Origin: Candidatus Zhuqueibacterota bacterium
GTDB lineage: Bacteria > Zhuqueibacterota > Zhuqueibacteria > Oceanimicrobiales > Oceanimicrobiaceae
Length of the DNA: 62,897 nt
Reading direction: 5' to 3'
Assembly (NCBI GenBank): GCA_029262005.1
Contig: JAJDAG010000153.1
Coordinates: 1-62,897 of the forward strand
In this document: positions 1-4,554 of the stretch, in pieces
How positions within the stretch are numbered: the first letter of the stretch is position 1
How the letters are laid out: every line of letters starts with the position of its first letter
The notes under the pieces: model-generated
Database searches by the model: none
Told to the model about the DNA's origin: nothing
What the model saw: only the letters and a program-made list of their open reading frames with translations
Translations under genes and position numbers: made by a program

Positions 1-99
1 TATATTGAGCTGTTCTACAATCGAAAGAGGCTGCATAGTACGCTTGACTATCAATGTCCTGCCGATTTTGAACAGAGTAATTGCAAGAAGTTAGATTAA
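1..99 (+). CDS. IS3-family transposase OrfB, C-terminal fragment
   Basis: The first 99 bases encode 32 residues and a TAA stop with no start codon, so this is the tail of a gene that begins outside the window. The residues YIELFYNRKRLHSTLDYQ followed by PADFE are the conserved C-terminus of the DDE integrase domain (rve family) of IS3-family OrfB proteins. The protein would catalyse strand transfer of the element. Only the tail is visible, so whether the copy is active cannot be told. Confidence 0.85.
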   Translation, partial: YIELFYNRKRLHSTLDYQCPADFEQSNCKKLD

Positions 100-129
100 C
101 TGACTGTCCAGTTTTTCGGGGTCGTACCA
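1..129 (+). mobile_element. 3' end of an IS3-family insertion sequence
   Basis: The window opens inside an insertion sequence. After the transposase stop codon the sequence continues into an end that reads CTGTCCAGTTTTTCGGGG and finishes in CCA at 129. Read inward this is TGG...CCCCGAAAAACTGGACAG, the usual style of IS3-family terminal repeats (TG...CA ends). The left end and the target duplication lie outside the window, so the target cannot be judged. Confidence 0.8.
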
Positions 130-170: not shown

Positions 171-289
171 GCTAACCCGCAAGCGACGAAACAGCACAAA
201 ACCTTAAAAAAGCTCTAATTTCACTCAAACCAATATGCCCCAATAATCACACAGGCCAGCTTGTCGGGTTGAGCCAGCAGGAACAGGTA
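171..289 (-). repeat. attC-like inverted repeat closing a putative gene cassette
   Basis: Two arms, GGCTAACCCGCAAGC (172-186) and GCTTGTCGGGTTGAGCC (273-289), pair with two single-base bulges and enclose about 86 bases. On the minus strand the outer boxes read GCTCAAC and GTTAGCC, near the integron consensus RYYYAAC/GTTRRRY (7/7 and 6/7). The structure lies about 50 bases downstream of the stop of the minus-strand gene at 341-911, where a cassette attC should be. The stem is shorter than usual, so this call is weaker than the one at 1656-1785. Confidence 0.35.
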
Positions 290-340
290 TCTGTCAAATC
301 CTGCAAATTTCTTCTGCCGCAGCCGATGAAATAAAAAAAG

Positions 341-911
341 TTAAATAAAATGTCTGCCAAACCATTTTAAATCAGCTTCTTTGGTGGGCATCTTTCTGCT
401 GTAAATATCCCTATATTGAACAACGATCTCTAAATTCCTCAGAACCTTTCTGACTTCATCCCGAAAACCACTAAAAAGTTCATCTTTGACATCACCCAGT
501 AGCCTGATTAAAACAGCTTCTTCGTTCGGAGGAATTGACAAACCATCAAGGTTATCATAAAATGTGTCCCAGCTTATTCCGTCAGGAGGCGCTGGCATCC
601 ACGAAATAATGTCATCCTTTTGAATTTGCCCCATTCGTGAAATGAATTTCTCTACAATTAGCGGGCCGACACCGGTGTTTTTCAATTTAACAGCAATACG
701 GTTTTCGTAATCATTAATTAGGAATGTGTGCTATAGGAGTTAGTGATTTAAAATTATGGCGTCTTTGGATCCAAAGTGCGACCACGGCAACGAATATTGA
801 AAAAAATGAGATAACCAAAGCGCACAAGGCAGTCAGTGCCGCTACATGCTCGGGATTATTCTCTAGAAACCTAATTATATCTGCCATCGTTGATATTTGT
901 GTTTTTGCCAA
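341..911 (-). pseudogene. small membrane-anchored protein, split by a frameshift
   Basis: Two minus-strand frames join into one protein of about 190 residues. Frame one (911-714) gives an N-terminal stretch, one membrane segment (residues about 24-46, ALTALCALVISFFSIFVAVV) and ends ...LTPIAHIPN-stop. The second frame, open across the break, resumes directly with DYENRIAVKLKNTGVGPLIV and runs to 341. The join near 710 needs a +1 or -2 shift; in the shifted frame the bridge reads LINDYEN. Proteins with one N-terminal helix followed by a YENxIxVKLKNxGVGPLII module are a recurrent accessory-gene family of unknown function. It follows the 920-1618 gene by 8 bases, so the two may share a transcript or cassette. 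The shift could be real decay or a sequencing error. Confidence 0.6.
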
Positions 912-919
912 TTGAGTTT

Positions 920-1618
920 TTAAATTCTAATGTTTTTTTTATCGGAGTTGCTCGCAATCTTCCAATGATTAAATTTCGTCCATTCAACGTTAGTCTTCGT
1001 AGAGTTACCTATCTCACTCATTAGGTCTTTGTGTATGCCCTCCTTAAATGCTCGCACCAAGACGCGTTTTTTCAACAGGGCTTCAACCTCAAACATTAGC
1101 ACGCTATAGCCTCGCCTCTCTCGTGGTTTCCAAAAGGGAGTCTTCTTGATACACCGTGCTGCAACATCAGCACGGTGCTGATGATCTAATTTAGCCATTG
1201 GTTGATTGGGTGATAACCGTTCAAATTCCTCCCAGAACGCTTTGTCATTAACTTGGCCAAAGACACCCGTCATGCAGAACGGTTGATATCGATAATGCCG
1301 CTTATACTTCTCGAGGGCACAATCGAGAATCGCGTCGGTCCATCCATGTTTTCCTTGCTTTGCATCGAAGCCCTTTCTCGCGTTACTTCCCTTCTTGAAT
1401 TTCTCTAACCAGTCTTGTCCCAAAAGTAGTTCCCGTGGTGACGTGAGATATGAATGTTTCACATCAATCCAAAAATCGATCTTTTCGGCAGTTCCTTTGA
1501 CGATTGCGACTACTGCCACAGCCTCCGATGAGCCCCCGTCTGCGAGAACTGGATAGTCGATTGTCGAGAAGGATGATATCAGAATGTTGGTTGAATAGAC
1601 TATAGGTTTTTGTCCCAT
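920..1618 (-). CDS. hypothetical protein, 232 aa
   Basis: I do not recognise this protein. It is a soluble, basic polypeptide with no signal peptide or membrane segment; an early region (about residues 10-75) is strand-rich and reads like a small beta domain (FWIDVKHSYLTSPRELLLGQ), the rest is mixed and Trp/Lys-rich. An upstream in-frame start at 1666 exists, but the ATG at 1618 is preceded by AAAGGAAATTCTTG, a usable ribosome site, and the extra 16 residues lie close to the attC-like repeat, so 1618 is preferred. It is followed after 8 bases by the frameshifted gene at 341-911, and preceded by the attC-like site at 1656-1785, which fits a two-gene cassette. Confidence 0.6.
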   Translation of the reverse strand: MGQKPIVYSTNILISSFSTIDYPVLADGGSSEAVAVVAIVKGTAEKIDFWIDVKHSYLTSPRELLLGQDWLEKFKKGSNARKGFDAKQGKHGWTDAILDCALEKYKRHYRYQPFCMTGVFGQVNDKAFWEEFERLSPNQPMAKLDHQHRADVAARCIKKTPFWKPRERRGYSVLMFEVEALLKKRVLVRAFKEGIHKDLMSEIGNSTKTNVEWTKFNHWKIASNSDKKNIRI

Positions 1619-1655
1619 CAAGAATTTCCTTTCTCTACTCAATATAATCGCTACA

Positions 1656-1785
1656 CATAACGACACAATAAGGGGCCGCCGAATTGCGGGCCGCGATATT
1701 TAAATTACCGAAATGTTACTGCGGAGCAAGATGCTGAAATCAAGTACGCGTGTTCGGCGGTCGCTCTTTATTGATTTGTTATATT
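1656..1785 (-). repeat. putative integron attC site (long imperfect inverted repeat)
   Basis: On the minus strand the element starts ATATAACAAATCAATAA and ends CTTATTGTGTCGTTATGT. The arms (1754-1785 and 1656-1684) pair over roughly 30 bases with several unpaired bases on one side only, ending in CCGCCGAA/TTCGGCGG, and enclose about 70 bases. Outer boxes ATATAAC and GTTATGT each match RYYYAAC/GTTRRRY in six of seven positions. Total length, about 130, is in the attC range. It sits between the end of one minus-strand gene (1854) and the start of the next (1618), as an attC in a cassette array would. No integrase is in the window. Confidence 0.5.
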
Positions 1786-1853
1786 TAAATATGTAAATGA
1801 CGATATTTTATTAAACCGATATTCTTTTTGGTAAATTATAGGTTCATTTCAAA

Positions 1854-2513
1854 TCAAACTGGTTCTTTTGATTCTTTTAATATGCTGTCAAAAGATTTAC
1901 ATAAATTTTCGAATAAAATTTTATCATCTGAATGCTTTACTTTAAATGCTGGCCTATCATTAAAATCAAGATATGGAAAAGTTGGTGAAACAATGACAAA
2001 GCCATCATCTTGGTCTTTATCTATAAATAGGTATAATGCGGTTGGGAAAGTATCGTAACATCTCACTTCAATGTTTTTTCTTGATGCTTCATCAACACTA
2101 TTAACCCACTTGTTGATATATTTTATAGCCCCTTGTATGTCTTCTGTAACAGCTGGGTGTAATGTTAAGCGTTGGAAGTCTTCAATATTAGGATTGATTA
2201 AATTCTCATCATCAAAATCAGCCATATAGAGAATTTTTGCTTTGCATCCAGATAGTAACTTTTTTTTAATTAAATCTTCATTATGTCGGAGAAAATTTGT
2301 TGCATGAATAGCCACAAGGCATATTTCACTTTGGGCTTTGTTTATACTGTCCTCATGGGGTGGTGTAACGCCTCAGTTGGAATTGGACATACGGTGGCTC
2401 CTTTTTAGTTTTTTTGCCACCTTAAATATAAACCCTTGTTTGTCCAATTCCAACTGAGGCGTTACACTTTTCCCATTTAAGTGCTCCATAAGTGGTGCAC
2501 TTTCATTATGCAT
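1854..2513 (-). pseudogene. DUF5919/PLD-like accessory protein interrupted by a 105-bp element
   Basis: The open body (2362-1854) reads HEDSINKAQSEICLVAIHAT onward without a start codon. A good ATG with an AGAGG ribosome site lies at 2513 and encodes MHNESAPLMEHLNGK up to 2468, where a 105-bp element (2363-2467) begins. The element is 35 codons long, so the head and body are in the same frame, and reading through it meets a single TGA near its far end (2374-2372). The body has the pattern of an alpha/beta domain in which a set of small helices precedes LxxGCKAKILYMADFDDEN, similar to DUF5919-type or phospholipase-D-like modules found in accessory regions. The family call is weak; the interruption is clear. 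If TGA is not bypassed, only a GTG-initiated fragment from about 2318 could be made. Confidence 0.55.
2363..2467. mobile_element. 105-bp MITE-like element with perfect 27-bp terminal inverted repeats
   Basis: GTGTAACGCCTCAGTTGG... at 2363-2389 is repeated as its exact reverse complement at 2441-2467 (27 of 27 bases). The 51-bp centre carries a small inner GGTGGC/GCCACC pair and A/T runs. No obvious target duplication flanks it. It lies inside a coding frame on the minus strand. A transcript would fold into a long hairpin. It codes for nothing itself, so it would need a transposase acting in trans. Confidence 0.7.
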
Positions 2514-2585
2514 AGAACCTCTACCGACTAAAATATAACTAGTTGATTACGTGGTGAATCTATACAATTTCAACTGTCTACATAT

Positions 2586-2599
2586 AGACAAATTTGTCT
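2586..2599. promoter_or_regulatory. 14-bp perfect palindrome
   Basis: AGACAAATTTGTCT is a perfect palindrome about 75 bases upstream of the ATG at 2513 on the minus strand. Position and symmetry suit an operator for a dimeric regulator of the minus-strand cassette gene. No regulator gene is next to it. Confidence 0.3.
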
Positions 2600-3159
2600 A
2601 AATAAAGTCATTCTTGTTATTCCGTACCGGTTCGCCAAACCCTGGCCAAAGCCCGGCAAGATACAGTCTATTATGGCGCAGCAAAAACATCGCACCTGCA
2701 TTTCTGCAGTGCGCTTGCGCTAGTATTTTATAAGAATATGTTGTCTGCTTTGCTCAAGCAGCTTAAATTTCGCCAATAGATGCATTGTCAATCCCTGTTT
2801 GGTTCATCGACAATTTGCTTCTCCCACCATCATGGTAGTTTCGCGAACACTCGGAGTCGGAAGAGTGTGGGAGTGGAAATGTATAAAAACAATATAAAAC
2901 AGCATATTAACAATGTCAAAAGAAAAAAACTGCATTATGCAAAAACCGGCTATGGTCACATTGCAAGTTAAGGCCAATTCGGCCGTTGCTGCTGCAAAAA
3001 CACAACGACGCAGGCATCAGAAGATCGGCGGGCACAACTTCGGTTTTGCCTGGCTCTGTTGCCATGAAAATCGCAACGCCAACGCACTGCACGCCAATAG
3101 CAACGGTTAAACAAAACCGGGTATTTGTAAATGAATCAGGTAAAATTCACTAAGGTGGG
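2600..3159. other. non-coding or decayed stretch
   Basis: No convincing gene is seen. The longest open frame (2913-3110, 65 codons) lacks a ribosome site and reads as low-complexity Ala/Arg/Asn sequence. Composition shifts from AT-rich to C-rich toward the repeat array that starts at 3160, and phrases such as CAACGCCAACGCACTGC in 3070-3095 already resemble decayed repeat units. Confidence 0.4.
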
Positions 3160-3411
3160 TTTAAACATACTTCAACCAATGCAAAACAGGCCGTTACCAA
3201 AGCAAAACACCATTGTGCAAATGTAAAACTCAACCCGGCCAGGGCAAAACACGACTGGTCCAACGCAAAACCTAGCCGGGCCGGCGCCACACACAACCCG
3301 GACAAGGCAACACAGGCGTGGTACCAGGCGACACAGAAGCGGGACAACTTAACACGCATATGGGCCGGGACAAAACACCATCGGTGCAACCCGGAACAGG
3401 CCCGGGCCGAG
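3160..3411. repeat. degenerate 21-bp tandem repeat array, about 12 units
   Basis: From 3160 to 3411 the sequence falls into consecutive 21-base units, each beginning with a variant of GCAAAACA and most carrying a CCGGGCCA-like second half; boundaries at 3181, 3202, 3223 and so on keep exact 21-base spacing through 3391. Because 21 is divisible by three the plus-strand frame gives a repeating heptapeptide of the kind KTxPGQG, but it is broken by a TAG at 3274 and has no start, so it is either a decayed repetitive gene or a non-coding minisatellite. Confidence 0.7.
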
Positions 3412-3544
3412 GTTGTTTTTATTTGTGCGAGCCCAACAACTGTGGCTGCAAAGGCCTGATTATTCAGTGGCCGGCAAACTCTAACCGGTTTTTTACACCT
3501 TTTCAGAGTGGAATTTGCTGCAAGCGCTGCGCATTTATATCGCG

Positions 3545-3685
3545 CCTGAATAAATCACAGCATCTTTGTCATTCAGCCGCAACCTGTTTAGTTGACAGCC
3601 GCTTATTTTAGCCAAAAGACGCCACCTGCGTCACAATCGGACGCATGAATTTTACTTTAGGCTGTGAATGCGTGCATGATTCAGG
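3545..3685. repeat. dispersed repeat family A, copy 1
   Basis: This about 141-bp element starts CCTGAATAAATCACAG and ends CTGTGAAT...GATTCAGG, giving imperfect terminal inverted repeats. Inside are the shared blocks TTTGTCATTC, AAGACGCC and CACAATCGGACGCATGA, which also occur in the same order at 5164-5305 and 43589-43730. It is the most diverged of the three copies. It overlaps the in-frame upstream extension of the next gene, supporting a later start for that gene. Confidence 0.65.
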
Positions 3686-3774
3686 CTAAAGCATTGCTGC
3701 GCGCTCACCGATACTTAAAGAGTCTCTCGCACAAGCACATAACTTATAGCCAAATCAGAAAGGAGACTGAAATT

Positions 3775-4554
3775 ATGGTACCCGCGTATCGATTGCAAAA
3801 AGTTGAAAATGCGATGCTGCGGCTGGACAAAATACTGTCCGGCGCAGAAGTCACAAATCTCACCTTGCCGGAAGCGTTGAAAACCGGGATAGACAACAAT
3901 CGTCAGGCGCTGGCAGACAATGTAGAAAATTACGCCCTGGCCCGGCGTGAACATGCTTTGACAGCTTTGTCTTTGCGCGCCATGCAAAATGAAACGCTGC
4001 TGTTGTTGCGGCGTGCGCGTCAGTTTGTCGGCTCGCATTTGTCACTGCCTGAGCGTGACGCCATGCGCAAACAATATGGCCTGGCCACTTTGCACCGGTT
4101 TGGCCAGGAGCGGATGTTACAGATTTTGACCAATGTTATTGCCGTGTCGGCATCACAAACCGATCCCGCCTTAAAATTACCAGCGGACATGGTGACAAGC
4201 GCACAAACGCTGCAGCAGGCATTTCACCATGCTCTGGATAATAAACGCCATTATTTCGCCGGGAAAATCAGCCTGCGCCAGAGCCGTGTCGATGTTATCC
4301 GGGAATTTCGCAAAGTGCGCAACCAGGTTTATGCTTTTCTCATGCAAGTCATGCCCGAGGGCAGCCGCGATCCACGTCTCACGGACTTTGGTTTCCGCCC
4401 TTCTGTGTTGCGGCGAAAAGCAAAAGCATCGGCGATGGTGACAATGGCCTCTGAATTTGAGAATAATGGGAAAGGTTTTAACGCAGGCTTCACTGAGAAC
4501 GCTGAATTCAGCAGAGAAAAATCCATGCAGGTAATATTACAAGAGCAAAATTAA
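3775..4554 (+). CDS. hypothetical helical protein, 259 aa
   Basis: Family not recognised. The sequence is almost entirely predicted helix: Leu/Ala/Arg-rich stretches with few Gly/Pro, no signal peptide, no membrane segment. One longer stretch (about residues 60-95, HALTALSLRAMQNETLLLLR) looks like a long amphipathic helix or coiled coil. The ATG at 3775 is chosen because AAAGGAGACTGAAATT precedes it; the frame is open from 3664 but that extension is repeat-derived sequence. It stands alone, with repeats on both sides, and no neighbour gives a functional hint. Confidence 0.6.
   Translation: MVPAYRLQKVENAMLRLDKILSGAEVTNLTLPEALKTGIDNNRQALADNVENYALARREHALTALSLRAMQNETLLLLRRARQFVGSHLSLPERDAMRKQYGLATLHRFGQERMLQILTNVIAVSASQTDPALKLPADMVTSAQTLQQAFHHALDNKRHYFAGKISLRQSRVDVIREFRKVRNQVYAFLMQVMPEGSRDPRLTDFGFRPSVLRRKAKASAMVTMASEFENNGKGFNAGFTENAEFSREKSMQVILQEQN

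Follow-up and report, generated by a model that had tools for sequence, protein, structure and literature searches.

A probable relic of a reverse integron with a deleted integrase gene in a draft genome of Candidatus Zhuqueibacterota

Are the minus-strand genes at the left end of contig C61 integron gene cassettes, and if so, what became of the integrase? The contig is complete in the window analysed here (62,897 nucleotides) and belongs to a 5.77-Mb draft genome of 205 contigs. A sequence-only reading had proposed two attC sites, at 1656-1785 and 171-289, in a cassette cluster without an integrase. Our analysis supports one of the two sites, and we think it likely that positions 2919 to 1655 of the minus strand represent what is left of a 'reverse' integron from which intI has been deleted.

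A search of Rfam gave no attC match. There were two sub-threshold matches only, both on the hairpin of a MITE in the window, and a covariance model was therefore built for the purpose. The full-length IntI encoded on contig C106 of the same genome was used as query and led to 65 integrase-bearing loci from named genomes. In a box-and-stem scan attC-like sites numbered 56 per 157 kb upstream of integrases as against 9 per 364 kb downstream. The first model (R1) comprised 38 sites, including the one on C106; the site in the window was left out. Applied to 756 kb, R1 gave 98 matches at E<=0.05, and the 95 that fell in the named integrase-bearing loci were without exception on the expected strand and upstream of the integrase. 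The 98 matches, nearly all of them beside integron integrases, made up the second model (R2), whose training set includes the sites of contigs C112 and C48 and excludes those of the window, C168 and C175. Covariation in the training alignment amounted to 218 double-change cells, compared with 99 in shuffles, which supports the modelled attC structure.

The inverted repeats at the left end of the window, and the element at which the contig stops, are as follows.

1-129, plus strand: end of an IS3-type element found also on contig C64
170-289, no strand assigned: inverted repeat, second attC of the earlier reading; rejected on model, cassette ends and hairpin background
1655-1784, minus strand: attC site, recombinogenic bottom strand = plus strand; 26.5 bits (R1), 28.1 bits (R2)
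2363-2467, no strand assigned: 105-bp MITE with 27-bp perfect terminal inverted repeats, IS-related

Plain hairpin strength did not discriminate between these candidates and background. The stems at 1655-1784 and 170-289 are ordinary, since elsewhere in the window there is a stem of equal strength roughly every 2.6 kb, and a specific attC test was therefore needed. With R1 the repeat at 1655-1784 was the best match in 126 kb, and with R2 its E value was 9e-6 over 6 kb. Genome-wide (5.77 Mb), R2 found five places of at least 28 bits, on C48, C112, C175, C168 and in the window (28 to 34 bits); the next best scored 17.1. Within the window this is the single attC counted by R2. The model recognised the R''/R' boxes, the spacer and the L''/L' stem. 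The boxes are of the R type (ACATAAC/GTTATAT on the plus strand), the central spacer has 5 unpaired nucleotides (GACAC/GATTT), and in the covariance-model alignments the extra unpaired bases are confined to one arm, L''. The repeat is imperfect, sits between two minus-strand genes and is oriented to match the gene. As expected of an attC, the plus strand, which is the bottom strand of the cassette, folds better than the minus strand (-22.6 versus -14.9 kcal/mol). These are the features described for attC sites in PMC8946536, and judged by its sequence the repeat is a real attC. The earlier proposal thus holds for this site, shifted by one nucleotide, including its boxes, its one-sided unpaired bases and its minus-strand cassette orientation.

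The covariance-model check that the sequence-only reading had suggested gave the opposite answer for its second site. The repeat at 170-289 exists, with a short bulged stem and a long loop, but R2 gave no match there even at E values of up to 10 with every filter disabled, it had no cassette-end partner or matching cassette start, and its hairpin is no better than background. It was ruled out as an attC on these three counts. In the box-and-stem scan the top hairpin was the one at 2363-2467, which is stronger than both of the others and whose boxes (GTGTAAC/GTTACAC) fit the attC pattern by accident. This candidate was also rejected, as the element proved to be an IS-related MITE whose 27-bp repeats are perfect. 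It is apparently a deletion derivative of an IS that is repeated at contig ends; an IS with the terminal repeat GTGTAACGCCTCAGTTGGAATTGGACA was seen at the ends of C80, C46, C184, C73, C35 and C77. This terminal repeat mimics attC R boxes and can mislead attC scans. The left end of C61 itself stops inside an IS, and the IS3-type end at 1-129 is probably the reason why the contig ends there.

In a cassette, two ends derive from one circular site and usually match: the start, which follows G|TT, and the R'' box of the attC. Among adjacent attC ends in known arrays the match was exact in 61 of 75 pairs, compared with 7.9% of random GTT 7-mers that have an exact match within 900 bp. Full complementarity of the end boxes has likewise been described for most cassettes recovered in PMC4909258. 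The R'' box of the window attC (ATATAAC) has a sole exact partner in 1785-4000, namely 2533-2539, which lies about 20 nt ahead of the start codon of gene C. The cassette is therefore delimited as 2538-1661, a circularisable unit whose start and R'' ends match across G|TT. Exact cassette-start partners were also present on C106 (2563-2569), C112 (199-205) and C168 (6818-6824), while for the attC of C48 the contig begins too soon for one. The cassette and the genes in and behind it are:

1661-2538, minus strand: gene cassette, 878 bp, 7/7 end match GTTATAT 2539-2533 / ATATAAC 1784-1778
1854-2513, minus strand: cassette gene C, function unassigned, broken near its 5' end by the MITE
920-1618, minus strand: gene A, 232 aa, no assigned function, no Pfam family
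341-911, minus strand: gene B, membrane-anchored hypothetical protein, apparent frameshift near 712

Because the MITE at 2363-2467 lies in gene C, this gene is probably dead; it has no homologs in plasmids. Gene A has no counterpart in 59 relatives and no homologs in plasmids or viral contigs, and neither an attC nor a matching cassette end was found behind it in the window. Gene B, which has homologs in Persicobacter, Ruegeria and one relative, is apparently split by the frameshift near 712. As the window contains no matching R'' for a following cassette and 170-289 lacks a partner, genes A and B were not assigned to a cassette. They may represent a second cassette whose attC was removed by the IS3 insertion, or chromosomal flank. 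Of the cassette cluster that had been proposed one site therefore remains, and the cluster itself is not established.

It might be asked whether this lone cassette has any connection with an integron at all. The answer appears to lie directly upstream, where four further elements were found.

2539-2590, minus strand: attI-like site, consisting of the palindrome TGTCTATATGTAGACA (2575-2590) and the recombination point 2539|2538
2720-2785, minus strand: intI 5' remnant of 21 codons, MHLLAKFKLLEQSRQHILIKY followed by a stop, aligning with the intI start of contig C92
2786-2890, minus strand: conserved leader between promoter and intI start, with at least 16 homologous copies
2891-2919, minus strand: sigma-70-type promoter TTGACA-N17-TATATT, directed towards the cassette; intI promoter in integrons of this type

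The exact palindrome occurs at five places in 5.77 Mb, one in the window, three on C112 and one on C163. C10 carries it with one mismatch, and a relative, G002, has it at two places. A spacing of 34-35 nt between the palindrome and G|TTA, 35 nt in the window, is shared by C61, C112, C163, C10 and G002:C9, and the junction on C112 had been located independently of the palindrome. We read the conserved palindrome and the junction at fixed distance as an attI-like site. The remnant MHLLAKFKLLEQSRQHILIKY shares 12 of 20 residues with the start of the C92 integrase, MHHPTKPKLLEQVRQRIRTK (score 45), and of the 60,839 frames of 20 residues in the window the runner-up scored 31. The statement that no integrase is present consequently needs qualification: there is no intact gene nearby, but 21 codons from the 5' end of intI survive, together with the promoter, at 2919-2720. 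The promoter is a perfect match to the sigma-70 type, and the same TTGACA-N17-TATATT motif or a near variant is found in 15 of 16 genomic leader copies. In the window the cassette reads in the same direction as the promoter, the intI start and the attI-like site.

One helix of the leader (ACAC/GTGT and variants) covaries, with 13 of 2000 permutations being as good, and a conserved RNA helix may form in the leader where the transcript is predicted to begin. The helix pairs are GTGAACAC/GTGTTCAC, GAGCAC/GTGCTC and ATACACTT/GAGTGTAT, in columns 33-79 of alignment A4 (approximately 2890-2840 in the window). A crossing second helix, which would make a pseudoknot, was not significant in the leader (184 of 2000 permutations). 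At 2945-3420, and upstream of several leader copies, there are degenerate TTTGC / GCAAAAC repeats about every 20 nt; TRF did not detect them as a tandem array.

The promoter-leader-intI-start block is not confined to this locus. For the stretch 2954-2700 its own genome contains at least 15 further matches, which makes at least 16 copies, counted in 1.93 Mb (about one third of the genome) plus two palindrome loci. Listed copies are window 2700-2954 and loci L131, L095, L194, L014, L126, L261, L013, L011, L104, L012, L260, L144, L120 and L154. In most of them intI is truncated or missing and an accessory gene usually stands behind. On C92, C198 and C28 the block continues directly into integron-integrase sequence. 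C92 shows the order promoter, intI fragment of 135 residues, junction and a SLFN/AlbA-type gene, all on one strand. Behind other leaders there are genes for DUF2130, SpoIIE/GAF, DUF6232, ExbD-like, SLFN/AlbA, tyrosine recombinase and DUF4440 proteins, several genes without known function, and on C97 a gene whose N-terminus resembles that of gene C (ESAP). This is a mixed accessory set such as is found in cassettes, and the genes are candidates for captured cassettes. No attC was detected behind most of the other leader copies, and those on C42, C5 and C184a had no clear junction behind them. The leader was not found in plasmids, nor its exact motif in viral contigs. An intact intI of the leader-associated type was not found in the genome, and the full ancestral order was not seen in one piece. 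Since the integrase-less layout recurs across the genome, captured genes appear to have been left under the promoter of the lost integrase. A more far-reaching view, which we put forward tentatively and consider rather doubtful, is that the genome holds dozens of mini integron platforms that have lost intI but kept promoter, leader and attI, each driving one captured gene; they could amount to a distributed integron if the IntI of C106 or a recently lost one acts in trans.

The remaining integrons of this genome and its relatives provide the background for these observations. C106 encodes a full-length IntI (TIGR02249, 442 bits versus a cut-off of 265) in the canonical divergent orientation. 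The cassettes beside this intact IntI, at C106:1-2543 (L010), carry an AbiJ/Stk2-like fragment as well as DUF3800 and DUF5655, both listed by PADLOC as candidate families in defence (PDC-M04A and PDC-S18). The region immediately downstream of the integrase (C106:4268-4700, L010) contains an 83-bp tandem repeat. Further lone attC sites are located at C168:6818-7151 (L094), C112:199-1889 (L092), C175:10104-10161 (L180) and C48:644-745 (L093). The cassette of C168 has matching ends and lies behind a molybdopterin oxidoreductase gene; being single, small and without a leader, it is a candidate for off-target (attG) insertion. Integrons are common in this class, with an integrase above the curated cut-off in 27 of 60 relatives and attC matches in 34 of 60. 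In G017 and G020 intI and the cassettes are on one strand with intI ahead of attC, whereas other relatives in the class are divergent. Integron-integrase-like frames of about 450-490 residues, compared with the usual 320-400, were noticed in G001, G002, G004, G007, G023 and G044.

How did the present arrangement arise? With promoter, intI start region and attI-like site directly upstream of the cassette, a decayed integron fits better than an orphan cassette cluster. The ancestral order would have been intI promoter, leader, intI start, attI-like site and one cassette made up of gene C and its attC. To judge from the sites preserved, IntI would have captured the cassette by the usual route, through recombination at G|TT between attI and the folded bottom strand of attC. 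Nearly all of intI would later have been deleted, leaving about 20 codons, so that the cassette would now sit immobile some 350 nt downstream of the intI promoter, beyond the reach of an integrase of its own, and would be transcribed from that old promoter. The cassette gene was later struck by the MITE at 2363-2467.

Several other explanations can be considered. An IntI encoded elsewhere could have inserted a lone cassette at an off-target position of the chromosome, in which case there was never an integron at this place. Such attG insertion is an established route (PMC12901181, PMC12444791), a full-length IntI is encoded on C106, and other lone attC sites exist, for example that of C168 with its matching cassette ends. 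We regard this as improbable for the window, where the cassette joins an attI-like site that, like the intI promoter and start region preceding it, is conserved and shared with other loci. It is also conceivable that the window carries the distal piece of the C106 array, split off by the draft assembly, as each array lies at the end of a contig and GTTATGT is the next-cassette start in both. However, 60 kb of other sequence follow on the integrase-proximal side of the window array, the two arrays exit the wrong contig ends for joining in one orientation, and the leader of the window belongs to an integrase type other than that of C106. A continuation of C106 was rejected for this wrong topology, and a split array is very improbable.

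The promoter-leader block might, on the other hand, be an independent dispersed repeat or regulatory element whose resemblance to an intI start and whose vicinity to a cassette are coincidental. Its at least 16 copies, the absence of a clear junction on C42, C5 and C184a, the degenerate repeats ahead of several copies and the covarying leader helix would suit such an element. That the block runs into an integron integrase on C92, C198 and C28, and that an attI-like junction lies behind several copies, argues against it and makes it an unlikely account. Chance inverted repeats without any link to integrons would fit 171-289, but for 1655-1784 they are refuted by the model scores, the end matching and the attI-like site, and as an explanation of the locus they are scarcely credible. 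The relic of a reverse integron therefore remains our preferred reading.

CALINs are common and their origin is usually guessed. What seems to be new here is that a lost integrase can be read from the sequence and that a single genome seems to contain many such platforms. Should these repeated platforms be confirmed, genes captured by integrons could become permanently expressed chromosomal genes through loss of the integrase and retention of its promoter, and standard attC/intI searches would miss most of them.

Comparison with known systems places the locus between established categories. It resembles a CALIN or a lone attC in having an attC without a functional integrase. With one attC it falls outside the default CALIN definition of IntegronFinder 2.0, which asks for at least two sites, although single-site ones can be true positives (PMC9024848); with 21 intI codons only, it is not a complete integron either. 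Loss of intI by deletion is among the proposed origins of CALINs (PMC8618304). In contrast to a CALIN the window keeps the promoter, the intI start and the attI-like site, so that its origin is readable. With the C106 integron it shares the R' core GTTATGT, a cassette start about 20 nt before a minus-strand gene and exact end matching, whereas C106 has an intact divergent IntI and a different upstream region. Cassettes inserted at attG, as far as the work of Loot et al. 2024 is related in PMC12901181, are similar in being single cassettes outside a working integron, but the cassette of the window is at a conserved attI-like site rather than an arbitrary chromosomal target. A further parallel is the reverse integron of Treponema denticola (PMC4909258), in which intI likewise points in the direction of the cassettes with attI in between and the end boxes are mostly fully complementary. 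This collinear order of promoter, intI start, attI-like site and cassette is found in the window and, with a longer intI fragment, on C92. Unlike the integron of T. denticola, the window has an intI cut to 21 codons and one cassette, and its platform is repeated many times in the genome.
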